A DNA stretch of 50,203 nt, taken from the IMG/VR virus record IMGVR_UViG_3300046327_000079, positions 1-50,203 of that record, one strand, 5' to 3'. Shown here in pieces: positions 13,277 to 32,845 of this stretch. Every line of letters begins with the position of its first letter. The stretch's first letter is position 1. Origin of the DNA: a virus. The position numbers were made by a program, and so were the translations under genes. The notes below the pieces were generated by a model. That model saw nothing but the letters and a program-made list of their open reading frames with translations, ran no database searches and was not told where the DNA came from.

Positions 13277-13876
13277 ATGAATTTAGAAAAATTAAAGGGT
13301 CATATACCAGAGGTGGTAATAACCCAACTACCAGACACTATCACTAAGTTTGAATTAAATACACCATTGAGGTTAGCTCATTTTCTTGCTCAAGCAGGAC
13401 ATGAGTCTGGCGGGTTTAAGTTAGTTAATGAAAACCTGAATTATGGAGCCAAAGGTTTATTGGGAATATTTAAAAAGTATTTTCCAACTCCAGAAAAAGC
13501 TGCTTTGTATGAAAGAAAGCCTGAAAAGATAGCCAATTTAGTATATGGCGGTAGAATGGGAAATGGTCCAGAAGCAAGTGGAGAAGGGTTCAAATTTAAG
13601 GGAAGAGGCTATATTCAGCTTACCGGAAAGTCCAACTATACTGAGTTTGCAAAATCTATAAATGAGGACGTAGTAGCAAATCCTGATCTTGTAGCAACTA
13701 AATATCCATTAGCTTCTGCAGCTTGGTTTTTTCATAAAAATGGACTGCATAAGATTGCTGACAAAGGAGCAACAGATGCAGTTGTAACAGAAGTTACAAA
13801 GAGAGTCAACGGTGGAACTATAGGATTGGCTGATCGTCTTAAGCATTTTAAAGAATATTACAGTTTACTACAATAA
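13277..13876 (+). CDS. GH19 chitinase/lysozyme-type endolysin
   Basis: A 199-residue glycoside hydrolase family 19 domain covering nearly the whole protein. Key parts: AHFLAQAGHESGGF with catalytic candidate E43, a second acid E52 in NENLNYG, and the strongly conserved FKGRGYIQLTGKSNY. Phage GH19 enzymes cut peptidoglycan. No signal peptide or extra binding domain, so export would need a holin, or the protein is a virion lysin carried on the baseplate, as its location between gp6 and tail genes may suggest. No holin was found next to it. Confidence 0.88.
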   Translation: MNLEKLKGHIPEVVITQLPDTITKFELNTPLRLAHFLAQAGHESGGFKLVNENLNYGAKGLLGIFKKYFPTPEKAALYERKPEKIANLVYGGRMGNGPEASGEGFKFKGRGYIQLTGKSNYTEFAKSINEDVVANPDLVATKYPLASAAWFFHKNGLHKIADKGATDAVVTEVTKRVNGGTIGLADRLKHFKEYYSLLQ

Positions 13877-21448: not shown

Positions 21449-22477
21449 ATGTCATATATACAATTTCAGGAAGATGACAGCGTACTAAGTTCGGATATAA
21501 TAACAGCTCCTTTGTGGAGTTCTAATGTATACAACCTAACGGCATCATTCACTTCTAGCATTCAGCAGAATAATACTAGCGGTAAATACTATTTAAATGT
21601 ATACAATTTATCAGTAGGAACTAGTGGATCAGAGGTACAATACTCTATAGCCTATGGTCATGTATCTGGAAGTGGATCTGCAGTATTCAATTCTCTAGTT
21701 AATGAAAAATCTCCTACTAGGGATATATACGGTCAGTATAGAAATTTAGTATACGGCGATGAGGGGTCTGTGTTTAATTTTGGAGGTAGTGGCGGAGTGT
21801 CAAGAGATATAATAGTTGTAAATGTAAATAGGTCTAGATACAAAGAAAAATTAAATGTTGGTACTTGGAACTTAACCCTTAAAAACGGTTCTGATTATTT
21901 ATATTTAACTGATAATAGTAAAGATTCCTCAACAACAAGCTTTTTGGGAGGAAACAGATTTTATTATATTGTAAGCGGATCTAACGGTAACAGCTACAAT
22001 ACATCTTCCGTACAGACAAATAGCGGCAGTTACGGGATGTTCTTCCCAGATATGGGTATATATGTATTAAATCCAAGAGCTTTATCATTAACTTATGCTA
22101 ATGGTGGCATAGGAATGACAGTAGATGAGACAGCGGCTACCACTTATTCTAGCACGTATAACATTAATACTGATAGGTTGTTTAGGTTAATAAACGCTGG
22201 GGCATCATTTAAAGGAAACAGTCAAGAAACCTTGTCAGCCAGATATTTCTTTGTAAATGCAAAGAGCTCTCAATTAAACTATACCACAAACCCATCTATC
22301 ATAGATAACAACGGAAATATACTATTCTCCACACTTATAGACAGCCCTCAAGTATTTCCAACTACTATAGGATTGTATAATGACGCTAACGAACTTTTAG
22401 CGGTTGCTAAATTGAGTAAACCGTTACCAAAAGACTTCACTAAGCAGATAACATGTAGAGTCAAATTAGAATTTTAA
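21449..22477 (+). CDS. Tail/adhesin structural protein with YNDAN C-terminal domain
   Basis: A 342-residue beta-rich protein, Ser/Gly/Asn/Tyr-rich. Its last 50 residues contain TTIGLYNDANELLAVAKLSK, closely repeated in the small protein at 32110-32409. That domain may be the attachment point in the virion. It is followed 17 bases later by the 785-residue adhesin. No enzymatic features. Role in fibre or baseplate periphery inferred from place and composition. Confidence 0.65.
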   Translation: MSYIQFQEDDSVLSSDIITAPLWSSNVYNLTASFTSSIQQNNTSGKYYLNVYNLSVGTSGSEVQYSIAYGHVSGSGSAVFNSLVNEKSPTRDIYGQYRNLVYGDEGSVFNFGGSGGVSRDIIVVNVNRSRYKEKLNVGTWNLTLKNGSDYLYLTDNSKDSSTTSFLGGNRFYYIVSGSNGNSYNTSSVQTNSGSYGMFFPDMGIYVLNPRALSLTYANGGIGMTVDETAATTYSSTYNINTDRLFRLINAGASFKGNSQETLSARYFFVNAKSSQLNYTTNPSIIDNNGNILFSTLIDSPQVFPTTIGLYNDANELLAVAKLSKPLPKDFTKQITCRVKLEF

Positions 22478-22494
22478 ATTCGAGATGACCACAT

Positions 22495-24852
22495 ATGTCA
22501 GCATACAAACGTTTATATAAGTCAGATGTAGTTAGCATTCCTTATGTCGCAAATAAAGAGTGGAGTATAAGTGTTTGCGATTTAAGTGATTATGGAATAA
22601 AAGTATATAATGGTGTAAGAACCTCCAGCAGGTTTGATTTTAATAATGATGTTAAAACAAACAATGAATATGATAGGTTTGTATTCGATTCTATAAACCA
22701 TCTATACTATCAAGAATTTTCCGGATCTTACTTAGATAATAGTTCTAATTTAGAATCCCTAAATTATTTTAGCGCCTCTATATATAGACCATCAGGATCT
22801 TATTTTGACTATACACCTGTAGGATACATGCTAAAATCCTTTCCTACAGGATCTAATGCTGAAATTAAAGTGTTGTCAATATCTAAAGACGTATATGGCA
22901 CATCTTTAAAGAAGATGTCTTTCAACATATCCACATCATTTATGAATTTACAGGATGATGGAAAGGGTAATATCTACGATACACTCGCAACAGGATCACA
23001 ACAGTCTGTTAATGAAGCGTATGCTACAGATGGAGTAAGGTTGTACTCTAGTGATTATACTACATACACTTCTTGGAATACTAGTACTGGAGGGGGTACC
23101 TATACCGGAACTTTCTGGGCAAATCCGCTTCCGGGAGAATTAGACCCTCCTGCTGATACAGGTAGACTTAATTATTGTGGATTATGGTCCGCTAAATCAC
23201 TGACTTATTTAGGAACTGGTACTTTAACCTTTAATATAACCGTAGCCTCAGACACTACATACTATTTCGGTATAGGATGTGATAATATAGCTTCCGTGTA
23301 TTTAGACGATAGTTTAATAATAACTCAAACATCTCTAGATAATAACGGAATTAATTATAAATATTGGCATATATACCCTGTTAATGTTACTGCAGGCACC
23401 CATACTGTAAAACTGTTAGGAGAAAATGTAGGAGTACCTTCCCCAGGAAATCCAGCATCAATGGGTATAGAAATATACAATAATACCGAAACTCAAATAT
23501 CGGCCAGTATTGAGGCATCTCCTAATGGAGAATCAATACCTTCTGGATTAGATATAGTATACTCATCAAAAGACCATTTAACAGAAGGATCTTTTAGTAA
23601 TACAACTTCTGATGTAATAGGTAATATATTCTATGAACATGGTTTGGCAATATTAACACACCCAGACTATCAGGATATATTTCCTTTACCTCCATATGCA
23701 AAAGATGATAGTTACACAATAAGGCCGTCCCAGTCCCCGTATAACATGAGTGTCTTGAGTAATGATGACTCAAGAGGATGGACAGCAATGACTGGGTCTA
23801 TAGTTGTTAGCGGTGGAGACTCTTCCATGTTTAGTGTAGTAGGAAACGGTACAATATCCTTTACTGGAACAGTTCCTGGAGAGTACAATACGAATTATAG
23901 CTATACTACCTATGCCCCAGGAAGTAGTTGTGTATTAAGATCTAATAATGCAAATATAAAAGTAAATGTAGCAAAAGCACTTTGTGATTTTGTTGTAAGT
24001 GCTGTTAAAGTTAGTATAGATCCAACAGCTACGCCAACACCAACAGTTACTCCGACACCAACACCAACCCTAGACCCAAGTGTAACACCAACAGTTACAC
24101 CAACACCAACAGTTACACCAACACCAACAGCTATACCGCCAACTCCGACACCTACTACTGTACCACCAACGCCTACTCCTACTACTGTACCGCCTACTCC
24201 TACACCAACACCCACTGAAGTAGCCTCTCTTTGCTATTCTATGGAGTACACAACTTCTGGGTTCCCTAGTGATCTATATGTAAGATATAGAGACCTTACC
24301 GATACTGTAGTTACTCAGTTAATCACTTCATTACTATCTACTGATAATAGCGACGGCACAACTACTGCATACATGTGCGTAAAACAAGGCGGAAGCTATG
24401 CAACACCAGTCTGCGTACAAGGTGGGGTTGAGGTAATATGTAGCCCATATGCGTGGGTATCAGGAGGAGCATGTAGCTCAGCAGTAGACATAAACTGTAG
24501 AACTTCAGCTAGGATAGATTGGGATGTTAGAGAAGTTGGAAGTGGAGTTGTAAACTTAGTAATTAAAAACAGCGATGGTTTGCAAGTTCTTAATCAGGAT
24601 TCCTCAGGAGCAGGTCCAATTAACGGAACAATATACTTAAAACAAAATAAAACTCCTTACACAGTATCAGTTACTCGTACTGGCGCAGAAGTGGCTCAGT
24701 TTAGAATATGTAATGTAAGTAGCACCTCAGAGATTACTCTAGACACTAATGTAACAAGCACTACTGACTATACGCTTACATACACACCAATGTGGTCTGC
24801 AGTATATGCTACCTACGGTAACAGTAATACACCAGTAGTGTGTCCTATTTAA
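22495..24852 (+). CDS. Large adhesin with PA14-like domain and Pro-Thr repeat linker
   Basis: A 785-residue protein. Residues 1-175 are a beta-rich N-domain. Residues about 180-325 resemble a PA14 carbohydrate-binding domain (YLGTGTLTFNITVASDTTYY, then GCDNIASVYLDDSLI, then YWHIYPVNVTAGTHTVKLLG). After a further domain comes a Pro-Thr linker (residues about 509-574, units such as PTPTPTTVPP). The last 210 residues are Cys-rich and beta-type, a likely receptor-binding tip. The linker is a natural acceptor for O-glycosylation, and glycosyltransferase genes start 61 bases downstream. Host recognition is the likely job. Confidence 0.7.
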   Translation: MSAYKRLYKSDVVSIPYVANKEWSISVCDLSDYGIKVYNGVRTSSRFDFNNDVKTNNEYDRFVFDSINHLYYQEFSGSYLDNSSNLESLNYFSASIYRPSGSYFDYTPVGYMLKSFPTGSNAEIKVLSISKDVYGTSLKKMSFNISTSFMNLQDDGKGNIYDTLATGSQQSVNEAYATDGVRLYSSDYTTYTSWNTSTGGGTYTGTFWANPLPGELDPPADTGRLNYCGLWSAKSLTYLGTGTLTFNITVASDTTYYFGIGCDNIASVYLDDSLIITQTSLDNNGINYKYWHIYPVNVTAGTHTVKLLGENVGVPSPGNPASMGIEIYNNTETQISASIEASPNGESIPSGLDIVYSSKDHLTEGSFSNTTSDVIGNIFYEHGLAILTHPDYQDIFPLPPYAKDDSYTIRPSQSPYNMSVLSNDDSRGWTAMTGSIVVSGGDSSMFSVVGNGTISFTGTVPGEYNTNYSYTTYAPGSSCVLRSNNANIKVNVAKALCDFVVSAVKVSIDPTATPTPTVTPTPTPTLDPSVTPTVTPTPTVTPTPTAIPPTPTPTTVPPTPTPTTVPPTPTPTPTEVASLCYSMEYTTSGFPSDLYVRYRDLTDTVVTQLITSLLSTDNSDGTTTAYMCVKQGGSYATPVCVQGGVEVICSPYAWVSGGACSSAVDINCRTSARIDWDVREVGSGVVNLVIKNSDGLQVLNQDSSGAGPINGTIYLKQNKTPYTVSVTRTGAEVAQFRICNVSSTSEITLDTNVTSTTDYTLTYTPMWSAVYATYGNSNTPVVCPI
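24019..24216 (+). repeat. Pro-Thr coding tandem repeat, copy 1
   Basis: About 200 bases of degenerate six-base units (ACACCA/ACTCCT types) coding (Pro-Thr)n with TVPP spacers. Repeat-encoded linker in the adhesin gene; similar tracts occur at 30796-30984 and 31553-31632. Confidence 0.85.
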
Positions 24853-24882
24853 TAAATAAAAAGTAAAATAATTAAAAAGTGC

Positions 24883-24890
24883 TATATTTG
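24883..24890 (+). promoter_or_regulatory. Bacteroidetes-type -7 element TATATTTG
   Basis: Matches the TAnnTTTG consensus known from Bacteroidetes promoters, 23 bases before the ATG at 24914. No clear -33 TTG element is visible. It would give the glycosyltransferase cassette its own, host-sigma-dependent promoter. Confidence 0.5.
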
Positions 24891-24913
24891 CAATAGTTAT
24901 TAAACTTTTTGTT

Positions 24914-26167
24914 ATGGATAAGATATTTGTTCAAATAGCTAGTTACAGAGACCCTCAATTAGTTCTTACGATAGACGATATGATTAATAAAGCAAAGTAC
25001 CCAGAAAGGTTGACTTTCGGGATATGCTGGCAATATGATGAAGAGGAGGATATAGAAGTTTTTAATCATCTTCCAAATATTAGGATAAAACACTACCATT
25101 ATTCACAAAGTGAAGGACTAGGTTGGGCTAGAAATATTACCAACAGCTTATACGAAGGAGAGAAATACACTCTTCAAATAGACAGCCATCATAGGTTTGT
25201 AGAGAATTGGGATGAAATTGTTTTGGAAGATTATAATCAGGCTTTAGAAATATCGGAAAAACCGATTATTACTACATATTGTACTCCTTTTAATCCGGAA
25301 GATTGTTCATGTAAGTATGATAAAACTCCCTGTTTAATGTCACAGTATGAGTTTTCTGCTGATAGATTACTAATGAGTATGCCTTGGTACATACAGGATT
25401 ATAGGGAAAGAACTAAAATAATTAAAGCCAGGACTATAAGTGGACACTTCTATTTTACTAGTGGAGAATTTATACAAGATGTACCTTACGACCCTGACAT
25501 TTATTTTGGAGGATACACAGAAGAGACAACTCTTAGTGTAAGGGCTTTTACAAAAGGATATGATTTCTATAGTCCTTATAGGATGGTAATGTGGCATGAA
25601 TACACAAGAAATTATAGGGTAAAACACTGGGAAGATCATGGATTAGAGAGCGCTACAAAAAAGACTTCTGGTGAAAGAGATGTGTATGCTAGGAAAAAAA
25701 CTAGACAGCTTTTTGGACAAGAAGATAACGGGATTGAAATGGGGGTATACGGACTAGGAGATGTAAGAACTTTACATGATTATGAAGTATATGGTGGGTT
25801 TGATTTTAAAAATTGTAGAATACAAGATTATACTCTAAAGGTAAAAGAACCGCCAAATCCAATAGATTGGGAAGAGCAGTTTAAAACTAATAAATACGAT
25901 GTAACCGTTGACTGGGACGTAGAGTTTTTTAAGAGTTTTGAATTCAGCAATCCTAAATTTTTAACATTAGGTATACAAACAAAATCTGGATTGGAATTAC
26001 ATAGAAAGGATTTTAAGATCGAGGAAGAACCTGATTATGTTAACTTATTAAATAATACCTATACAACCACAATAAATTCTCAAGATAAGCCTAGTAAAAT
26101 AGTAATGTACTTATTTGATGAAAACAGACAATGGAGTGATAGGTATGAAAAAGATATTAACATATGA
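24914..26167 (+). CDS. GlcNAc-transferase-type glycosyltransferase (PF11397-like)
   Basis: A 417-residue protein. The start MDKIFVQIASYRDPQL and the LQIDSHHRF motif (residues 88-95, metal-binding DxH) match the GlcNAc-transferase family related to Skp1 and other polypeptide alpha-GlcNAc transferases. GxGWARN (residues 68-74) is also typical. Residues about 330-417 form an extra beta domain. Predicted reaction: moving N-acetylglucosamine from UDP-GlcNAc to a protein hydroxyl. It begins the cassette of five transferases plus mutase placed after the Pro-Thr adhesin. Its end overlaps the next gene. Confidence 0.8.
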   Translation: MDKIFVQIASYRDPQLVLTIDDMINKAKYPERLTFGICWQYDEEEDIEVFNHLPNIRIKHYHYSQSEGLGWARNITNSLYEGEKYTLQIDSHHRFVENWDEIVLEDYNQALEISEKPIITTYCTPFNPEDCSCKYDKTPCLMSQYEFSADRLLMSMPWYIQDYRERTKIIKARTISGHFYFTSGEFIQDVPYDPDIYFGGYTEETTLSVRAFTKGYDFYSPYRMVMWHEYTRNYRVKHWEDHGLESATKKTSGERDVYARKKTRQLFGQEDNGIEMGVYGLGDVRTLHDYEVYGGFDFKNCRIQDYTLKVKEPPNPIDWEEQFKTNKYDVTVDWDVEFFKSFEFSNPKFLTLGIQTKSGLELHRKDFKIEEEPDYVNLLNNTYTTTINSQDKPSKIVMYLFDENRQWSDRYEKDINI

Positions 26168-27252
26168 GAATAGCTTTTTTATTAATAGGAAATGAAAGTA
26201 GAAAAGGCACTATAAACGGGTATAATATAAGATATGGAGGTGCCAGCTCTTCCGGAACGGAAAGCAGTGTTATATACTTAGCAGAATACTTAAGTAGCTT
26301 AGGATATAAAACTACAATAGCCCTAGAAAGATGTGAAGAGCCGGTAAACTCTAATGGAGTTTTATATACAGATTTTACTTTTACAGGAGATCCTGATAAA
26401 GAATATGATATTTTAATAAGTTGTTTATGGTATAAAGATTACGATCTACTGCCTATAAAAGTAAACAAGGCTCTTATATATTGGTGTCATTTAGCATGGG
26501 GGTACTCTTATATAGAAATGATTGAGTATGTAAAGAAGAATAATTTAAAATTTGGATTGGTTTCAATATCTAATTGGGCATATAACCATAATCTAGAGAT
26601 TAAAACTATTATGGAAAATAGTGGGGCAGAAGTTTTTGATGTCATAATACCAAATCCTGTAGCTGTGGACATAATGGAAGAGACTTTAAACACACCTCCT
26701 AATAGAAATCCTCATAGATTTATACACCACGGCCAATGGTCCAGAGGAGGAGATACATCTTTTAGAGCTGTTAAAAGTTTAGATTGGGGGGATTCTGAAT
26801 TTTTATCTTTTGATTACATTGATAGAGTAAATGGATTAGATAAAAAAACATTATTTAATGCAATAGCATCTAGCGAATATTTTGTATATCCCCAAATAAC
26901 CCATGGAAAGCTAGTGTACAAGGACACGTTTTCAGTTTCTATAGCAGAGGCTATAGGTCTTGGTGCTATAGTAGTTACATATCCTTTAGGCGCAGTTCCT
27001 GAGTATTTTGGAGACTATTGTCAGTTTTTAGAATACCCTGAAGGGGTAAATGTAGAAAGACTAAAATCAGAAAGGCTATCTGAGGAGCCATTGCTAGATT
27101 GTACTGATAACATAGTTGAAATGATAAAGTATCTAGAAGATAACCCGGATCATAAAGAAAAAATACGACAAGCAGGTAAAAAATATATAGCAGATAATTT
27201 TAATATAGATAAAGTAGGTAGTATCTGGAATGATTATTTAAAAGTATTTTAA
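26164..27252 (+). CDS. GT-B fold glycosyltransferase (GT4-like)
   Basis: A 362-residue protein with a GT-B layout. N-domain: GGASSSGTESSVIYLAEYLS, the usual position for acceptor and phosphate contact in GT4 enzymes. C-domain: HGQWSRGGDTSF, then VYPQI, and SIAEAIGLGAIVVTYPLGAV, which equals the conserved E-x-G/A donor-binding motif of GT4. A C-terminal helix follows. Predicted sugar-nucleotide-dependent transferase; donor and acceptor unknown. Overlaps the preceding gene by four bases and the next starts two bases later. Confidence 0.8.
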   Translation: MRIAFLLIGNESRKGTINGYNIRYGGASSSGTESSVIYLAEYLSSLGYKTTIALERCEEPVNSNGVLYTDFTFTGDPDKEYDILISCLWYKDYDLLPIKVNKALIYWCHLAWGYSYIEMIEYVKKNNLKFGLVSISNWAYNHNLEIKTIMENSGAEVFDVIIPNPVAVDIMEETLNTPPNRNPHRFIHHGQWSRGGDTSFRAVKSLDWGDSEFLSFDYIDRVNGLDKKTLFNAIASSEYFVYPQITHGKLVYKDTFSVSIAEAIGLGAIVVTYPLGAVPEYFGDYCQFLEYPEGVNVERLKSERLSEEPLLDCTDNIVEMIKYLEDNPDHKEKIRQAGKKYIADNFNIDKVGSIWNDYLKVF

Positions 27253-27254
27253 TA

Positions 27255-27938
27255 ATGAAAATACAAGAGTTTATTGACGGAGGGTTTTACATTAATTTGG
27301 ATCATAGAAAGGATAAGAATGATTTTATGATTAACCAATTAAAAGAATTAGATTTATATAACACAGTGGAAAGATTCTCAGCTATAGCTGCTTTTACTGA
27401 AATAGATTATAGAGTTCATGATAATGAAAAAATGTTTTTATTAGGAAAAGCTACCTCTCAATCTCATAAGACTGTTATACAATTGGCTAAAGATAGAGGG
27501 TATAAAAATGTTTTAGTATTAGAAGATGATGCTTTGTTTTATAAAAATGAAAATTATAATGCTGTATCTATAATTGAATCAGCTTTAGATGAATTAGAAA
27601 AAATTAAAGATTGGGATGTGTTTTTTTTAGGGGCTAATTTACATGATACTGTTTTAAATTTATACTCTGATCATCTTATAAAGTGCGACTGTTGCGTATC
27701 TTCTCATGCCTATATCCTTAATAGCAGGTGTTTCGATAAAATACTAGCTAATGGTTTTGATAAGCCTTTTGATGTAATGGATATTTTTTTAAATAATAAT
27801 TTTCAAAATAAGTATATAACCTATCCTGCCAGTGTTATACAAAAAGGAGGGTATATTTCAGATATAGGAGGTCATGAATCTTTTAATGAAGAATTTTGGT
27901 TAAGTAAATATGATAAACCAACAGTAAAACACTTCTAA
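27255..27938 (+). CDS. GT25-like glycosyltransferase
   Basis: A 227-residue protein matching the LPS glycosyltransferase GT25 pattern: FYINLDHRKDKN near the N-terminus, RFSAI, then SQSHKTVIQLAKDRG and VLVLEDDALF with the EDD metal-binding motif. GT25 enzymes transfer galactose, among others, to glycans or to protein hydroxylysine. Base composition is AT-richer than the surrounding structural genes. Stop overlaps the next start (TAATG). Confidence 0.8.
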   Translation: MKIQEFIDGGFYINLDHRKDKNDFMINQLKELDLYNTVERFSAIAAFTEIDYRVHDNEKMFLLGKATSQSHKTVIQLAKDRGYKNVLVLEDDALFYKNENYNAVSIIESALDELEKIKDWDVFFLGANLHDTVLNLYSDHLIKCDCCVSSHAYILNSRCFDKILANGFDKPFDVMDIFLNNNFQNKYITYPASVIQKGGYISDIGGHESFNEEFWLSKYDKPTVKHF

Positions 27939-28717
27939 TGAAATTAGGATTATTTTATCAATCCGGTTACAAAATAACCGCATGTTATTATGCATTAAAG
28001 CAATTTAGAAAATTTTACCCAACAGAACCTATTGCATTTTACGAAGATAATACTGACATTCTTAAACCAGTAGCCGATAAATTCAATTGTGTATACAAAA
28101 AAACTGATGTTAAAGGATACAATACGCAACATTTTGGAAAACCTGTATATAATTTAGAAACTTTAATACCGTGGCTAAAAAGAATGTACGATTCTTGTTT
28201 AACAACATTATCTGATGTTGATTATGTTCTATATTTTGAAGATGATGTATGGGTTAAAAGAAAGATACAAGGAACTCCTCCATATGATTTAACTGGTATT
28301 TTAGGTGTAGGGTGGGATAAAGAATTGTATGATTATCTAGGAGCTACTAATAGAGCAGCTTTTGGTTGTGGAGGGTGTATATTCAATAGATTAAAGTTTA
28401 TTGAAGCCTATAAAAATCTAAAAGATGTTGATTGGGAAATGATTGATAATATGGCTAAATCACCAAAACCAAGTGAGTGGGGAGATTCAGCTTTGACATT
28501 TATGTTTTTATATTCTAAAATGACCACGGGCCCTTGGGAAGAGTTGATACAGTATAGAAATAGTGAAGCAGAGACTTTATCTGATAGAAGGGGGTGGATA
28601 GGCACAACTGAAGAATTAGAAGATAAACAAGGAGATTGTGCAATAATTCATTGTTGGAAACCTTATTATTACCCAACAGAAGAAGAAACTGAATTTGTTA
28701 TAAATGAATTAAAATGA
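27938..28717 (+). CDS. GT-A type glycosyltransferase-like protein
   Basis: A 259-residue protein with a GT-A-like fold plan: an N-terminal Rossmann-like region (GLFYQSGYKITACYYAL), YVLYFEDDVWV with the acidic metal-binding triad, GVGWDKELYDYLG and a Gly/Cys-rich FGCGGC segment, then DSALTF. No signal peptide or membrane segment, so it works in the cytoplasm. Sugar unknown. Overlaps the next gene by four bases. Confidence 0.7.
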   Translation: MKLGLFYQSGYKITACYYALKQFRKFYPTEPIAFYEDNTDILKPVADKFNCVYKKTDVKGYNTQHFGKPVYNLETLIPWLKRMYDSCLTTLSDVDYVLYFEDDVWVKRKIQGTPPYDLTGILGVGWDKELYDYLGATNRAAFGCGGCIFNRLKFIEAYKNLKDVDWEMIDNMAKSPKPSEWGDSALTFMFLYSKMTTGPWEELIQYRNSEAETLSDRRGWIGTTEELEDKQGDCAIIHCWKPYYYPTEEETEFVINELK

Positions 28718-29511
28718 AAAAAATAATAGTAATACCTGCCGGAAGAAAGAGGTATTTAAAAATTTTATTAGAATATTTGATAAAATATAAAGATCAATTT
28801 AATGAAGTTATATTATGGGTAAATACTGAAAATGAAGAGGATGTTGCTTATATGGAAGAAATGTCTAATAAGTATGATTTCATAAAATTACAACGAGCAA
28901 AAATACCAAGAGAAGGGTGTATTATATACCATTATTTTGAAGAGTGTATTGATGAAAATGCTGTTTATTTAAGATTAGATGATGACATAGTTTTTATAGA
29001 TAAAGAAGCAATTAAAAATATTTTTGATTTTAGAATTAATAACCCTGAATATTTTTTAGTCTATGGTAACATAGTTAATAATGCCATAATTTCATATCTC
29101 CACCAAAGAAAAGGATTGATACCTAAAATTCCAATTTTTACTTATTCCTCAGTTTGTGAAAAAGGATGGTCAACTCCAAAATACGCAGAACTAATTCATA
29201 ATTCCTTTATTAAAAAAGTATATACTGATGATATTGAAAGTTATTATATGGATAATTGGATATTGCTAGATTATGAAAGAGTATCAATTAATGCAATTTC
29301 TTTTTTAGGCAAAGATTTTAAAGAATTCAGTGGGAGAGTTGGTCATTCTGAAGAAATATGGTTATCTTGCGATAAGCCTGTGGAGTTAAATAGGCCAAAT
29401 GTTATATGCGGTAATTCCGTTTTTTCTCATTATTCTTTTTATACCCAACGCATAGATCTAGATAGAACTGATATATTAGAAAAATATAATAAAATATGTA
29501 CGACTACTTAA
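28714..29511 (+). CDS. GT-A type glycosyltransferase (GT2-like)
   Basis: A 265-residue protein. Starts MKKIIVIPAGRKRYLKILLE as in GT-A transferases and has VYLRLDDDIVF (DDD metal-binding motif, residues about 90-92). Family members bind UDP-sugars through this triad. The gene is among the most AT-rich in the window, suggesting recent acquisition. It overlaps the mutase gene by 16 bases, so coupling is tight. Confidence 0.75.
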   Translation: MKKIIVIPAGRKRYLKILLEYLIKYKDQFNEVILWVNTENEEDVAYMEEMSNKYDFIKLQRAKIPREGCIIYHYFEECIDENAVYLRLDDDIVFIDKEAIKNIFDFRINNPEYFLVYGNIVNNAIISYLHQRKGLIPKIPIFTYSSVCEKGWSTPKYAELIHNSFIKKVYTDDIESYYMDNWILLDYERVSINAISFLGKDFKEFSGRVGHSEEIWLSCDKPVELNRPNVICGNSVFSHYSFYTQRIDLDRTDILEKYNKICTTT

Positions 29512-30581
29512 TAGTAGGATCCGGTTTATTCGGATCTATATGCGCAAGAGAGCTTACAGATAAAGGATACAAATGCCTAGTAATAGACAAACGTGATCAT
29601 ATAGGAGGTAATTGCTATACAGAAAATATAGAAGGAATAAATGTACACAAGTACGGACCTCATATATTCCATACATCAGACAAAAAGATTTGGGATTATA
29701 TTAATAAGTTTGCTACATTTAATAATTTTATTCACAGGCCTAAAGTTAATTATAAAGGCAGCATTTACTCATTCCCTATAAACTTAATGACTCTTTATCA
29801 AGTATATGGAGTTACTACTCCGGATGAGGCAGTTAGAAAATTAGAGGAGGTTAAATTAAATATACCAACTCCAAAAAATTTAGAAGAGTGGATTTTATCT
29901 CAAGTAGGACCTGAATTATACAATATATTTGTAAGTGGGTACACTAAAAAACAATGGAATAAAGACCCTAAAGATCTACCAGCAAGTATAATAAGAAGGT
30001 TACCAATTAGAATGTCTTTTGAAGATAACTATTACGAAGACACTTATTCAGGCATACCAATAGGAGGGTATACTCAGATTTTTGAAAATCTATTAGAAGG
30101 CATAGAGGTACGCCTAGATACTGATTACTTCTACAATAAAGACTATTTTAATGATATATCTAAAAAAATTATATATACAGGTCCTATAGATAGGTTTTAT
30201 TCCTATATCCACGGAAAATTAGATTATAGAAGCTTAAGATTTGATACAGTTAAGATAGATACTAGTGATTATCAAGGAGTTGCGGTTATGAATTATACAG
30301 ATATAGAGATTCCTTTTACAAGAGTAGTAGAACATAAACATTTTGAGTTTGGAAAACAAAAGAATACAGTAGTTACATACGAGTACCCAGAATCCGCCGG
30401 AGAACCTTATTACCCTATAAACGACAATAAAAATAATTCCATCTATAAAAAATACAAAGAAATGATGGATAATGAGTCCAAATTTATATTTGGAGGCAGG
30501 CTCACGGACTACAAATACTATGACATGCATCAGGTAGTAGCATCGGCACTTACAAAAGTATCTAAAATCATATTTATATAA
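29496..30581 (+). CDS. glf: UDP-galactopyranose mutase
   Basis: A 361-residue FAD enzyme that converts UDP-galactopyranose to UDP-galactofuranose. FAD-binding GSGLFGS (residues 8-14), KRDHIGGNCYTEN, HKYGPHIFHT, GYTKKQWNKDP and a C-terminal GGRLTDYKYYDMHQ are all mutase signatures, covering the full length. Its product is the donor for galactofuranose transfer, so at least one neighbouring transferase probably uses Galf. It ends the cassette; the next adhesin gene begins two bases later, and a promoter motif for that gene lies within its last codons. Confidence 0.92.
   Translation: MYDYLIVGSGLFGSICARELTDKGYKCLVIDKRDHIGGNCYTENIEGINVHKYGPHIFHTSDKKIWDYINKFATFNNFIHRPKVNYKGSIYSFPINLMTLYQVYGVTTPDEAVRKLEEVKLNIPTPKNLEEWILSQVGPELYNIFVSGYTKKQWNKDPKDLPASIIRRLPIRMSFEDNYYEDTYSGIPIGGYTQIFENLLEGIEVRLDTDYFYNKDYFNDISKKIIYTGPIDRFYSYIHGKLDYRSLRFDTVKIDTSDYQGVAVMNYTDIEIPFTRVVEHKHFEFGKQKNTVVTYEYPESAGEPYYPINDNKNNSIYKKYKEMMDNESKFIFGGRLTDYKYYDMHQVVASALTKVSKIIFI
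30570..30578 (+). promoter_or_regulatory. Late-promoter-like motif ATATTTATA inside mutase gene end
   Basis: Exact copy within the last codons of the mutase gene, four bases before the ATG at 30583. It would restart late transcription for the downstream adhesins, separating them from the glycosyltransferase cassette. Confidence 0.55.
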
Positions 30582-30582
30582 T

Positions 30583-31341
30583 ATGGATTACTTAGTTACT
30601 ATAACAGGAGATGGATTAGGACCTTTTAACATATACTATGATTCAATATCAGTAGGTACAAAGTTACTTACTGGAGTAAGTAGACAGGATATGCTAAATG
30701 GCAAATTAGTTACAGGGATACCCAGTACCGCAGTGTCTATTATAGTATATAATACAGATGCAGACTGTCAAAATTATGTTACTTATTATTTAGCAACACC
30801 AACACCAACACCAACTACAGCCCCAACTCCAACACCTACTCCAACTACAATAGTAGTAGATTGTACAATATCAAGTGGAACAGTTAGCATAAATACAGTA
30901 GCATCAACTCCAACACCTACTTCTGCACCTCCTACACCTACTCCTACTACCGTACCTCCTACACCAACACCGACACCAACAGATACTCTGGTATTGAGAA
31001 GAGCTCAAGTAGTGGAAACTTCCGTGTCAGTATCAAGCACCTTCCAGATAACTAATAATACCGTAGGAGGCACTACAGACAATATATCAGGAGGAACAGC
31101 TGGTAGTCCTAAGTATGGTAAAAACGATGCTTATGTTACAGCAGTGCCAAGTTCTGTTACTTATAGAATAAGGAAAACAGCAACTAGTACAACAGCATTA
31201 GATGGAGGTTTTATATTGGTATATGTAAATGGGTCCATACAAGCATCTCAATTATTCAGTCAAAATGACGTGATAGATTATTATTTAACAGTAACCATAG
31301 ATAGTAGTAGTACAGTAAATATAGAAATACAAGAAGGATAA
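30583..31341 (+). CDS. Pro-Thr linker adhesin/fibre accessory protein
   Basis: A 252-residue protein. Residues 1-70 form a small beta domain (GPFNIYYDS, then GVSRQDMLNGKLV) that is repeated in the next gene. Two Pro-Thr linkers (residues about 72-90 and 108-134) flank a short Cys-containing segment. Residues about 135-252 form a Ser/Thr-rich beta domain. The linkers resemble that of the 785-residue adhesin. Virion surface protein; its Thr-rich linkers are candidate glycosylation sites. Confidence 0.65.
   Translation: MDYLVTITGDGLGPFNIYYDSISVGTKLLTGVSRQDMLNGKLVTGIPSTAVSIIVYNTDADCQNYVTYYLATPTPTPTTAPTPTPTPTTIVVDCTISSGTVSINTVASTPTPTSAPPTPTPTTVPPTPTPTPTDTLVLRRAQVVETSVSVSSTFQITNNTVGGTTDNISGGTAGSPKYGKNDAYVTAVPSSVTYRIRKTATSTTALDGGFILVYVNGSIQASQLFSQNDVIDYYLTVTIDSSSTVNIEIQEG
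30796..30984 (+). repeat. Pro-Thr coding tandem repeats, copies 2 and 3
   Basis: Two tracts (about 30796-30854 and 30907-30984) of the same degenerate six-base unit as at 24019-24216, separated by a short unique segment. Confidence 0.8.
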
Positions 31342-31343
31342 AT

Positions 31344-32099
31344 ATGCCAACAAGACAAGTAACAGTAACAGTAAGTACACTAGGAGTAAGCACAGGACCA
31401 TTTAATATATCTGATGATGTACTAGGAGTCATAGCCATGGGAGTAACAGGAACCCAGTTACAGGCTGGGTATGTAGTAAATACTGATGTTAACTCTACTA
31501 CAATAACAGTGGCTTCTATAGGAACTTGTACTAATTCTCTGAATATAGTATTGCCAACGCCTACCCCATTACCAACTACTACACCATTACCAACATCAAC
31601 ACCAACACCTACCCCAACAGTAACACCTGTGCCAGTTTATTTTGATTCAACATATACTAGCTTTAGCAATGTTTGTGGTCAAGGCGGTAAAGCTTGGACA
31701 AGGTTAACAGGGCCTTCCGGAAGTCAAGTAGAAATTACATTATATGGACAGCAATTAGTATCCGGTGTACAAGGAGTAAGCGCTTGTTTTTACGGATCTT
31801 TGAATCAAACTACACTTCCTTCAGGTACCCCGGCTACAGGAACAGAATTATTAGCTGTATCTGAGTCTATATTAGCTATAAACACACCAGGAGGCATAAG
31901 TAAAACAGGTACAGTAGTAGTGGCAATACCTTCAATAGGATATAAAGATTTGATTATAGTGTATAGAACTACAAACCTAACTTCTAATTTCTCCAGTGGA
32001 AACTTGACGGCAACTATAACCGCTGTGGACTCAGTTGTTAAAACTAATGGAGATTTTATAGTAACTACATACGCATGTTCTGATACTGGGACTTGTTAA
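31344..32099 (+). CDS. Pro-Thr linker adhesin/fibre accessory protein, paralogue
   Basis: A 251-residue protein built like its upstream neighbour: N-terminal beta domain (GPFNISDDV, then GVTGTQLQAGYVV), a Pro-Thr/Leu linker (residues about 70-96) and a different C-terminal beta domain with four cysteines (VCGQGG, ACFYG, ACSD, last residue C). The shared N-domain with divergent C-domain suggests duplication followed by swapping of the binding domain. Preceded by AAGGATAAAT. Surface exposure is inferred. Confidence 0.65.
   Translation: MPTRQVTVTVSTLGVSTGPFNISDDVLGVIAMGVTGTQLQAGYVVNTDVNSTTITVASIGTCTNSLNIVLPTPTPLPTTTPLPTSTPTPTPTVTPVPVYFDSTYTSFSNVCGQGGKAWTRLTGPSGSQVEITLYGQQLVSGVQGVSACFYGSLNQTTLPSGTPATGTELLAVSESILAINTPGGISKTGTVVVAIPSIGYKDLIIVYRTTNLTSNFSSGNLTATITAVDSVVKTNGDFIVTTYACSDTGTC
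31553..31632 (+). repeat. Pro-Thr coding tandem repeat, copy 4
   Basis: Shorter tract with PLPTTTPLPTSTPTPTPT-type coding, same repeat class as the other linkers. Confidence 0.75.
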
Positions 32100-32109
32100 T
32101 ATATAAAAT

Positions 32110-32409
32110 ATGGTACAATATCAAGACTTTAGTTTAAAAGTAGCAAATAACCATTTAATAATGGAACGTACTATTAAATGTACAATTAAAGATCATGAAA
32201 TGGGGTATAGCTACAACCCATCCTTACTTACATCAGGAAGCCAGGAAAACATGTTAAGTTTTGCTACAGGATCTGATTTTATGCCATATGTAACCACAGT
32301 AGGATTCTACAATGATGCCAATGACCTATTGATGGTAGCTAAATTCGCTCAGCCAGTACCAATATCAGCAAATACAGATACAAATTTCTTAATTAGAATG
32401 GATATATAA
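32110..32409 (+). CDS. Short YNDAN-domain tail protein
   Basis: A 99-residue protein whose second half (VTTVGFYNDANDLLMVAKFA) closely matches the C-terminal domain of the 342-residue protein at 21449-22477. It is thus a stand-alone copy of that domain and closes the adhesin module. A virion assembly or attachment role is likely. No promoter motif before it; it reads on from the previous gene. Confidence 0.65.
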   Translation: MVQYQDFSLKVANNHLIMERTIKCTIKDHEMGYSYNPSLLTSGSQENMLSFATGSDFMPYVTTVGFYNDANDLLMVAKFAQPVPISANTDTNFLIRMDI

Positions 32410-32410
32410 T

Positions 32411-32845
32411 ATGTGGTTTTACAAAGGACAGGTTATAACAGACATCTCCCAGTTTCCAGAAAATGCATACGGTTTCATATACAAGATAAGAAAGGTAGAC
32501 GGCGGCAAATTCTATATAGGCAGGAAGAATCTAGTATCAGAAAGGACTAAGCCTCTAACAAAAAAGGAGCTGGCAGAACATACCGGTAAGGGTAAGAAAC
32601 CTACTAAAAAGAAAGTAGTGTCTGAAAGCGATTGGAAGACCTATTACGGGTCTAACGCTTCACTTAAGGCCGATATAAAGGAGCTAGGTAAAGAAGCCTT
32701 TGTTAGGGAGATAATGCACATATGCACCCATAAGAAACAAATGACATACCAGGAGTTAAGACACCAGATTATAAATGGGTGTCTAGAGTCTGCAAACTGC
32801 TATGTTGATAACATTCTCGGTCGTTTCTTTAGAAAAGATATTTAA
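32411..32845 (+). CDS. GIY-YIG family nuclease (SegE-like)
   Basis: A 144-residue protein with the phage GIY-YIG-like pattern: YGFIYKI and KFYIGRK as the two signature strands, a lysine-rich loop, then DWKTYYGSN and LGKEAFVREIMHIC. Close relatives in T4-like and cyanophages are usually annotated as SegE-like or putative endonucleases; it is not clear whether they are homing enzymes or act in DNA repair or packaging. It sits one base after the tail module, an ordinary cotranscribed gene and not an evident insertion. Confidence 0.8.
   Translation: MWFYKGQVITDISQFPENAYGFIYKIRKVDGGKFYIGRKNLVSERTKPLTKKELAEHTGKGKKPTKKKVVSESDWKTYYGSNASLKADIKELGKEAFVREIMHICTHKKQMTYQELRHQIINGCLESANCYVDNILGRFFRKDI

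Follow-up and report, generated by a model that had tools for sequence, protein, structure and literature searches.

The window analysed here, that is, the whole stretch of 50,203 bases of the viral record IMGVR_UViG_3300046327_000079 (G+C content, 35%), belongs to an uncultured phage in which T4-like genes (baseplate wedge, terminase, portal, head maturation protease) are present. Within its tail region lies a cassette of six genes, predicted to encode glycosyltransferases and a UDP-galactopyranose mutase, which we consider a probable phage-encoded system for the O-glycosylation of proline-threonine (Pro-Thr) linkers in the phage's own tail proteins. Open reading frames (ORFs) were called at all coordinates proposed in a first-pass annotation of the sequence. 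The cassette and the linker genes, named below by their start positions, are as follows (aa, amino acids; nt, nucleotides):

22495..24852, + strand: adhesin or tail-fibre-like protein with a Pro-Thr linker at aa 505-583 (nt 24007-24243), proposed acceptor; its position matches that of the Immutovirus fiber/spike genes
24914..26167, + strand: PF11397 (GT60-type) polypeptide glycosyltransferase, proposed initiator (Pfam, invariant motif and predicted fold)
26164..27252, + strand: GT4-like glycosyltransferase, proposed second-sugar enzyme and candidate galactofuranosyltransferase (weak Pfam match; constant in complete cassettes)
27255..27938, + strand: GT25-like glycosyltransferase, variable extension (family alignment)
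27938..28717, + strand: GT-A-fold glycosyltransferase, variable extension (predicted model)
28714..29511, + strand: glycosyltransferase exclusive to the window among 41 cassettes (single PHROG match, phrog_4447, E 1.2e-6)
29496..30581, + strand: UDP-galactopyranose mutase, predicted maker of UDP-galactofuranose (PF03275, E 1e-74)
30583..31341, + strand: small protein with two Pro-Thr stretches (aa 64-96 and 102-142), proposed acceptor (composition scan)
31344..32099, + strand: small protein with a Pro-Thr stretch at aa 64-104, proposed acceptor (composition scan)

The successive intergenic gaps from 22495 to 32409 measured 61, -4, 2, -1, -4, -16, 1, 2 and 10 bases, distances so small that the six cassette genes and the two following linker genes appear tightly coupled. 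The close packing previously described for 24914-30581, with genes overlapping or a few bases apart, was therefore confirmed (gaps of -16 to 2 bases within the cassette). Among the non-overlapping ORFs of at least 60 aa called in the window, Pro-Thr stretches were found in exactly three, 22495, 30583 and 31344, all of which touch the cassette, in line with the earlier description of a cassette set between three linker proteins. The linker of 22495 comprises 28 Thr and 25 Pro, and residue shuffling of the same proteins recreated a stretch of this kind in 9, 15 and 6 per 1000 (22495, 30583 and 31344, respectively). The threshold employed, 7 Pro per 24 residues, had been relaxed from 8, which had missed the Thr-rich locus L042, and was applied to the window, adjacency test, lineage, bacterial, pattern-record, gene-context and XacN1 scans.

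The cassette is flanked by three conserved genes that define its position in the phage genome:

20782..21441, + strand: conserved tail-region gene serving as locus anchor; 69.6% identical to an Immutovirus protein, and used to fetch 80 viral loci
21449..22477, + strand: conserved gene directly upstream of the variable tail-fibre site; its relative adjoins the 20782 relative in the lineage loci and in Immutovirus
32110..32409, + strand: conserved gene closing the variable site in the window; relatives occur in many lineage loci, with the cassette present or absent

In the Flavobacterium phage Immutovirus, the corresponding order is gp106 (relative of 21449, 42% identity), gp105 (matching 32110), gp104 (tail fiber), gp103 (tail spike), gp102 (hypothetical), gp101 (tail spike) and gp100 (relative of 32411). 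The window shows the synteny of an Immutovirus-type tail-fibre locus, with a 21449 relative, fibre/spike genes and a 32411 relative, although the 32110 relative of Immutovirus is located before the fibre genes, unlike that of the window. No Pro-Thr stretch was found in the Immutovirus genes between gp106 and gp100. The closest terminase relatives came from the same Flavobacterium phages (48.6% identity), and a member of the Bacteroidota is the likely host. Across the 80 viral loci fetched with 20782, a sample of at least 592 stretches carrying a relative of this gene, the content after the 21449 relative ranged from a few genes, through Pro-Thr proteins, to Pro-Thr proteins together with PF11397 genes; given this wide variation, the cassette occupies a variable tail-fibre site. 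The gene at 32411-32845, with which the synteny ends, matched the NAD synthetase group phrog_447 (E 6e-34) and also the homing endonuclease group phrog_314 (E 2e-11), while the syntenic gene of a Microcystis phage is annotated as GIY-YIG; the name NAD synthetase is probably wrong.

The protein encoded by 24914 was assigned to PF11397, which we take to correspond to CAZy family GT60, with 215.4 bits against a curated cut-off of 21 (Pfam, E 2e-63), and to the glycosyltransferase group phrog_24687 (PHROGs, E 9e-88), matching its previous designation as a polypeptide-GlcNAc-transferase-type enzyme. Residues D90-S91-H92, presumably resembling the DXH motif of polypeptide GalNAc-transferases, were invariant across 30 aligned sequences, that of the window among them. 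An AlphaFold model based on this alignment had a mean predicted local distance difference test value (pLDDT) of 90.3, and the best 50 matches listed in a Foldseek comparison with the PDB were all polypeptide GalNAc-transferases. When the structures were re-aligned, these enzymes took ranks 1-29 (Z 22.7-19.1, 262-285 residues, 3.2-3.8 A), with 6nqt_F as the best match (Z 22.7, 3.4 A over 275 residues) and the next enzyme at Z 17.0, in a comparison covering residues 1 to approximately 324, such that the C-terminal part was hardly tested. With a profile of the 30 PF11397 sequences, no sequence was retrieved from the PDB up to E 1, and hence the fold result adds to the Pfam name. In spite of the catalytic-domain fold match, the enzyme was not filed as GT27 because sequence homology to polypeptide GalNAc-transferases was undetectable. 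As modelled, the fold indicates kinship with enzymes that initiate mucin-type O-glycosylation, without pointing to a particular sugar or acceptor. DNA glucosylation was rejected as the role of the cassette, the fold group of its first enzyme being that of polypeptide transferases; the record is a fragment and no search aimed at base-hypermodification genes was made, so that no absence of such genes is claimed.

Pro is nearly as frequent as Thr in the linkers (25 and 28 residues in the largest), and the hydroxyproline-modifying Skp1 enzyme of Dictyostelium is, we assume, a member of the same Pfam family, so that the sugar might be thought to sit on hydroxyproline and not on Thr. We regard this as highly improbable, since the Trypanosoma cruzi mucins carry the modification on Thr, as described in passages of PMC3769586, and no prolyl hydroxylase family was found in ten further window ORFs scanned, a weak argument in view of an incomplete phage record and of other ORFs lying outside the scan.

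The remaining cassette genes were less readily classified. On its own, 26164 gave a weak match to PF13524 (E 9e-5, below cut-off); of 13 aligned members of its family, 7 matched PF13692 and 7 matched PF00534 (best E 1e-4), while the family profile had no match among PDB sequences, and no match to the GT4-like enzyme was found in isolated phages at E 1e-5. For 27255, the GT25 assignment was weak for the single protein (E 0.009), and all nine aligned family members matched the GT25 family PF01755 (best E 2.4e-16). The family alignments thus upheld the names GT4-like and GT25-like given to these genes before, and the label GT-A-like held for 27938, which had no convincing family by sequence: its model (pLDDT 82.3) matched solved GT-A enzymes in Foldseek (E ~1e-7, template modelling score ~0.5), with beta-1,3-GlcNAc-transferase 2, blood-group and alpha-1,3-galactosyltransferases and similar enzymes among the matches listed, and its EDD motif was invariant in 8 sequences. 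The product of 28714 formed a singleton family (F25) across the 41 cassettes, and the G+C content of the gene was 26% compared to 35% for the window. Finally, the mutase previously recognized in 29496 was corroborated by the PF03275 match at residues 145-341, by the FAD-binding GxGxxG motif (seen as GSGLFG) and by matches along the full length to 4mo2 (E 1.8e-132) and 1i8t (E 4.5e-131). In the alignment, the phage sequence HIFHTSD faces HIFRTSD in 4mo2, and this His in place of Arg presumably favours UDP-Galp over UDP-GalNAc.

A serotype-converting gtr cluster consists of a membrane flippase and a membrane-bound transferase. Neither family was detected with Pfam in the six cassette proteins of the window and ten optional-gene relatives, and export, lipid-carrier and polymerase families were likewise absent from these proteins and from the aligned families scanned. 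Hydrophobic stretches (mean hydropathy of at least 1.6, highest 2.0) occurred in only 23 of 190 cassette proteins, exclusively GT4-like ones, and therefore membrane anchoring is borderline at most. Taken together, the lack of an export or lipid-carrier family among the scanned proteins and this borderline hydrophobicity fit a cytoplasmic modification ahead of virion assembly.

A scan with the 24914 protein recovered 47 viral loci, of which 40 (L002-L041) held close relatives with approximately 57% identity or more. The 41 cassettes compared, including that of the window, contained near-duplicates and fell into 28 clusters at 95% (27 without the window). Seven cassettes in which the contig ended inside or shortly after the cassette (L018, L021, L024, L029, L032, L033, L040) did not enter the completeness count; in the 34 complete ones, PF11397 and GT4-like genes were present throughout (34/34 each, one of the latter fused), and 32 also had the mutase. 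No mutase was found in ten records searched for it (L035, L036, six with cut cassettes, L211 and L215). Minimal cassettes composed of PF11397, GT4-like and mutase genes alone were observed in L022, L023, L027, L028 and L037, which would fit a disaccharide linked to peptide, and L034 harboured this minimal core plus one extra ORF. The latter, of 201 aa (L034:7057-7662), lies between the PF11397 and GT4-like genes and by eye is like a homing-endonuclease-type insert. Optional genes encoded a GT25 family (F3, 24 proteins), a GT11 fucosyltransferase family (F4, 19 proteins, of which one was tested, E 1.5e-23) and six families of methyltransferases (one protein each tested), four of them FkbM (E 3e-12 or better), besides F5 (9 proteins) and F23, for which no Pfam family was found, and F9, assigned to DUF3431. 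The cassette is therefore a constant core of PF11397, GT4-like and mutase genes with exchangeable extra genes, and it is spread over 6-8 gene contexts, the figure varying with how many shared neighbours are demanded.

Some arrangements departed from this pattern. In L213, the PF11397, GT4-like and GT25 genes lie on the opposite strand from the GT-A gene, a rearrangement that suggests mobility of the module. L045 and L046 each showed two PF11397-like matches, one within a protein of 1039 aa, and no GT4-like or mutase match in the stretch compared; they appear to represent another type of cassette, more distantly related. At the same site in six tail-lineage loci (L051, L061, L067, L083, L086, L087), the 22495 relative was followed by divergent PF11397 genes (33-37% identity) that had different partners; a mutase match was absent from the stretch compared, and the variable tail-fibre site may hold several independent glycosylation cassettes.

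The relation between cassette and linkers was examined in both directions. Firstly, 14 of 25 deduplicated loci had a Pro-Thr ORF directly adjoining the cassette, compared to 5.05 expected, and a count of 14 was reached in 0 of 10000 label shuffles within loci. This test used 25 of the 28 clusters, as three had no neighbour or fewer than six flanking ORFs, and the window was restricted to ORFs starting at 14900-40600. The excess persisted when loci were clustered at 85% (12/20, 4.4 expected) and at 75% (5/8, 1.6 expected, P 0.005). Secondly, viral records were sampled by a DNA pattern encoding six consecutive Pro-Thr pairs, and PF11397 was present in 8 of 50; among 50 records sampled with an arbitrary 14-mer, none held it over cut-off and one match fell below it (Fisher P 0.003, or 0.015 with the weak match counted). 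Both samples consisted of 50 of 80 loci: in the Pro-Thr sample, L263 was excluded as it shared a contig with L224, and 29 others were not included; in the random sample, longer contigs were chosen to match the total length roughly, with no contig-by-contig matching. The pattern matches are at the DNA level, their translation as Pro-Thr not being confirmed record by record, and two of the eight PF11397 hits were weaker (E 1e-21 and 2.5e-12). Seven of these eight records were inspected, and the Pro-Thr ORF was directly beside PF11397 in L468 and L474, one gene off in L473 and farther away in L470 and L471, with none in the stretch inspected for L469 and L472. In addition, PTPTPT-coding matches occurred in 37 of 47 PF11397 records and the reversed pattern in 0 of 47; they were found elsewhere in the record for five loci lacking an adjacent linker ORF (L011, L014, L017, L030, L037).

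Several observations weigh against the acceptor and sugars proposed here. As counted, 11 of the 25 loci lacked an adjacent linker ORF, although one of them, L032, reflects an ORF-calling miss, in which an antisense ORF took the place of the Pro-Thr frame after the GT4-like gene (the caller prefers ATG); the count was left at 14. In L038, a record of 136 kb, no PTPTPT-coding match was found. Cassette and linker genes share one variable site, and thus part of the adjacency may reflect a shared hot-spot. PF11397 was absent from 42 of the 50 Pro-Thr-pattern records. Within the tail lineage (50 of 80 loci, L049-L098), 5 of the 8 PF11397-bearing records and 12 of the 42 others showed the Pro-Thr pattern, a difference that was not significant (P 0.076); among lineage loci with a minimum of 4 kb downstream, 7 of the 9 that carried a cassette gene and 21 of the 51 that did not had a Pro-Thr ORF. 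The GlcNAc donor of 24914 follows from the family name only. As the mutase is missing from records L035, L036, L211 and L215, galactofuranose would be usual and not obligatory. Lastly, two bacterial cellulases with Ser-Pro-Thr linkers are glycosylated and a third one with such linkers is not, according to passages of PMC6794216, so that a linker guarantees no glycan. The linkers do not need the cassette, yet the cassette tends to occur with linkers, and the link is statistical and not universal. The arrangement of PF11397 and glf next to Pro-Thr genes, for which the first-pass annotation had suggested a search in phages, was recovered in part, at 14 of 25 loci and not at the other 11, with the mutase absent from some.

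These figures also bear on the notion that the first enzyme acts on another protein of host or phage, such as capsid, tail tube or a host adhesin, the Pro-Thr linkers being flexible spacers common in aquatic phages. The Pro-Thr pattern in records without PF11397, in the pattern sample as well as in the lineage, is what it would lead one to expect, and passages of PMC12619734 place glycans of Mycobacterium phages at the C-termini of capsid and tail tube subunits. However, the excess of adjacency and the reverse enrichment (8/50 vs 0/50) speak against it, as does the fact that the only three Pro-Thr ORFs called in the window all touch the cassette, and we consider it distinctly unlikely.

Relatives outside this group of viruses were scarce or differently organized. 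Among 50,697 phage records, three carried PF11397 relatives (tblastn, E 1e-5), XacN1 (32% identity) and two Stenotrophomonas phages, and both XacN1 and RAS14 encoded, approximately 9 kb from the PF11397 relative, a protein containing a Pro-Thr stretch (ORF325 in XacN1). The XacN1 virion contains at least two glycoproteins, tentatively ascribed by the authors to the phage's own glycosyltransferases (passages of PMC5852040). The same paper names PXD008065 as the deposited virion proteome, and no glycan figures among the modifications given for its published search. XacN1 therefore resembles the window in its PF11397 relative, distant Pro-Thr gene and glycoproteins, and differs in that no mutase or GT4-like relative was found in the 25 kb inspected. 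In bacterial genomes, at least 77 loci with PF11397 relatives (30-49% identity in the best segment) were found, with a mutase match in one and a GT4-like match in none (tblastn, stretch compared). The PF11397 ORF was called in 57 of the 77 and uncalled in 20; of these 57 loci, 10 had a Pro-Thr ORF at most two genes away, some of these ORFs being doubtful, on GC-rich opposite strands. With the core partners nearly missing from these 77 loci, the phage core is not a common cellular operon, nor is the cassette a simple copy of one found here. Isolated uptake of one host lipopolysaccharide (LPS) locus was rejected as an origin, given the recurrence of the PF11397-GT4-mutase core in 6-8 gene contexts, and was also disfavoured by the scarcity of its partners in the bacterial loci.

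A different function for the same genes would be the remodelling of host surface glycans for superinfection exclusion or receptor masking, with the tail-gene neighbourhood being a cargo hot-spot. Loci for LPS and capsule often contain GT25, GT4, GT11 and mutase genes, the tail-fibre site is variable, and the cassettes of L010-L014 had no Pro-Thr ORF in the stretches compared, all of which would suit such a function; so would the distribution of mutase genes, which were found in 88 phage records, with just two of these, both Stenotrophomonas, from a genus shared with phages carrying PF11397 relatives. Furthermore, phage glycosyltransferases are described as switching host serotype in passages of PMC12619734 and PMC10955285, and the mutase of an Agrobacterium T4-like phage has been interpreted as serving the cell wall (passages of PMC6630229). 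On the other hand, the solved structures closest in fold to the constant first enzyme are polypeptide transferases, the scanned cassette proteins contain no flippase or polymerase family and are at most borderline in membrane anchoring, and host-surface remodelling does not predict the enrichment of PF11397 in Pro-Thr-pattern records. We therefore hold this function to be unlikely, although a more serious contender than an acceptor elsewhere in the virion or host.

Computation established the gene families, a predicted fold for the first enzyme, the location at tail-fibre genes, the conservation by modules and the statistical Pro-Thr link, and from these we infer the acceptor, the sugars, the order of steps and the benefit of glycosylation. 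In our view, the cassette probably constitutes a modular phage-encoded system that O-glycosylates the phage's own Pro-Thr tail linkers in the cytoplasm, stepwise and usually with galactofuranose. The PF11397 enzyme would attach the first sugar, probably a HexNAc, to Thr residues of the linkers. UDP-sugars would come from the host, with the mutase converting UDP-galactopyranose to UDP-galactofuranose, and the GT4-like enzyme, the sole other constant transferase, would add the second sugar, probably galactofuranose, a step proposed because of the constant core. GT25, GT-A and other exchangeable enzymes would then extend or cap the glycan, and relatives may fucosylate or methylate it. Linkers glycosylated in this manner could act as stiffer, protease-resistant spacers between the virion and the binding domains, and variable caps may alter how hosts or competitors see them. 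The galactofuranose-containing O-glycan on the phage's own fibre linkers that had been proposed for this locus thus gained ground from the polypeptide-transferase folds, tail-fibre synteny, two-way gene association and XacN1 glycoproteins, and lost some to the pattern records without PF11397, the cassettes without an adjacent linker and the occasional absence of the mutase.

The closest chemical parallel is found in T. cruzi, whose UDP-GlcNAc:polypeptide alpha-GlcNAc transferase we take to belong to the same family as PF11397. In its mucins, a polypeptide GlcNAc-transferase initiates on Thr, and core 2 consists of beta-Galf on alpha-GlcNAc-Thr (passages of PMC3769586 and PMC7504415). The minimal phage set of PF11397, GT4-like enzyme and mutase could build such a core, although the T. 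cruzi pathway is a eukaryotic Golgi pathway acting on surface mucins, and the phage sugar and linkage are only proposed. With more reserve, we suggest as a possibility a mobile modular mucin-type system that places a Galf-HexNAc-Thr core on Pro-Thr tail linkers, convergent on T. cruzi core 2, with caps diversified by GT25, GT11 fucosyl- and methyltransferases in the manner of bacterial LPS and capsule loci.

Probably the nearest architecture is that of the streptococcal serine-rich-repeat adhesin loci, in which the adhesin gene stands beside a cytoplasmic operon with constant initiating and strain-variable extending transferases; these loci are cellular and rely on Ser-rich repeats, GtfA/GtfB initiation and accessory Sec export. 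In mycobacteriophages, virion glycans are reportedly made by phage-encoded transferases. The virion proteins of these phages are reported to bear glycans on capsid and tail-tube C-termini (PMC12619734 and PMC10955285, citing Freeman et al. 2023), which is similar to our proposal in that phage virion proteins are modified and differs in that the passages concerned mention no Pro-Thr linker or mutase cassette. The Ser-Pro-Thr linkers of bacterial cellulases carry O-linked galacto-oligosaccharides important for complex stability (passages of PMC6794216), in cellular secreted enzymes whose transferases those passages leave unnamed. Among the matches listed in our literature searches of open-licence papers, there was no phage cassette combining PF11397 with a mutase and none with Pro-Thr tail linkers as acceptors, in line with the earlier remark that no described phage system with this exact set was known. 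Phage-encoded virion glycosylation is already known, and the scheme of enzyme, acceptor and sugar proposed here is an uncommonly explicit and testable form of it. As the cassette supplies a candidate initiating enzyme, a candidate acceptor in the Pro-Thr linkers and a candidate marker sugar in galactofuranose, the question is reduced to a direct glycopeptide test. Should the scheme hold, the adhesins of phages would wear a glycan coat that the phages themselves vary, which would matter for the stability of virions and the recognition of hosts; the enzymes would also offer soluble tools for carrying out mucin-type O-glycosylation in the cytoplasm of bacteria.

Elsewhere in the window, an endolysin/chitinase-like gene (13277-13876; phrog_181 endolysin, E 2e-67) was observed directly after the baseplate wedge gene.

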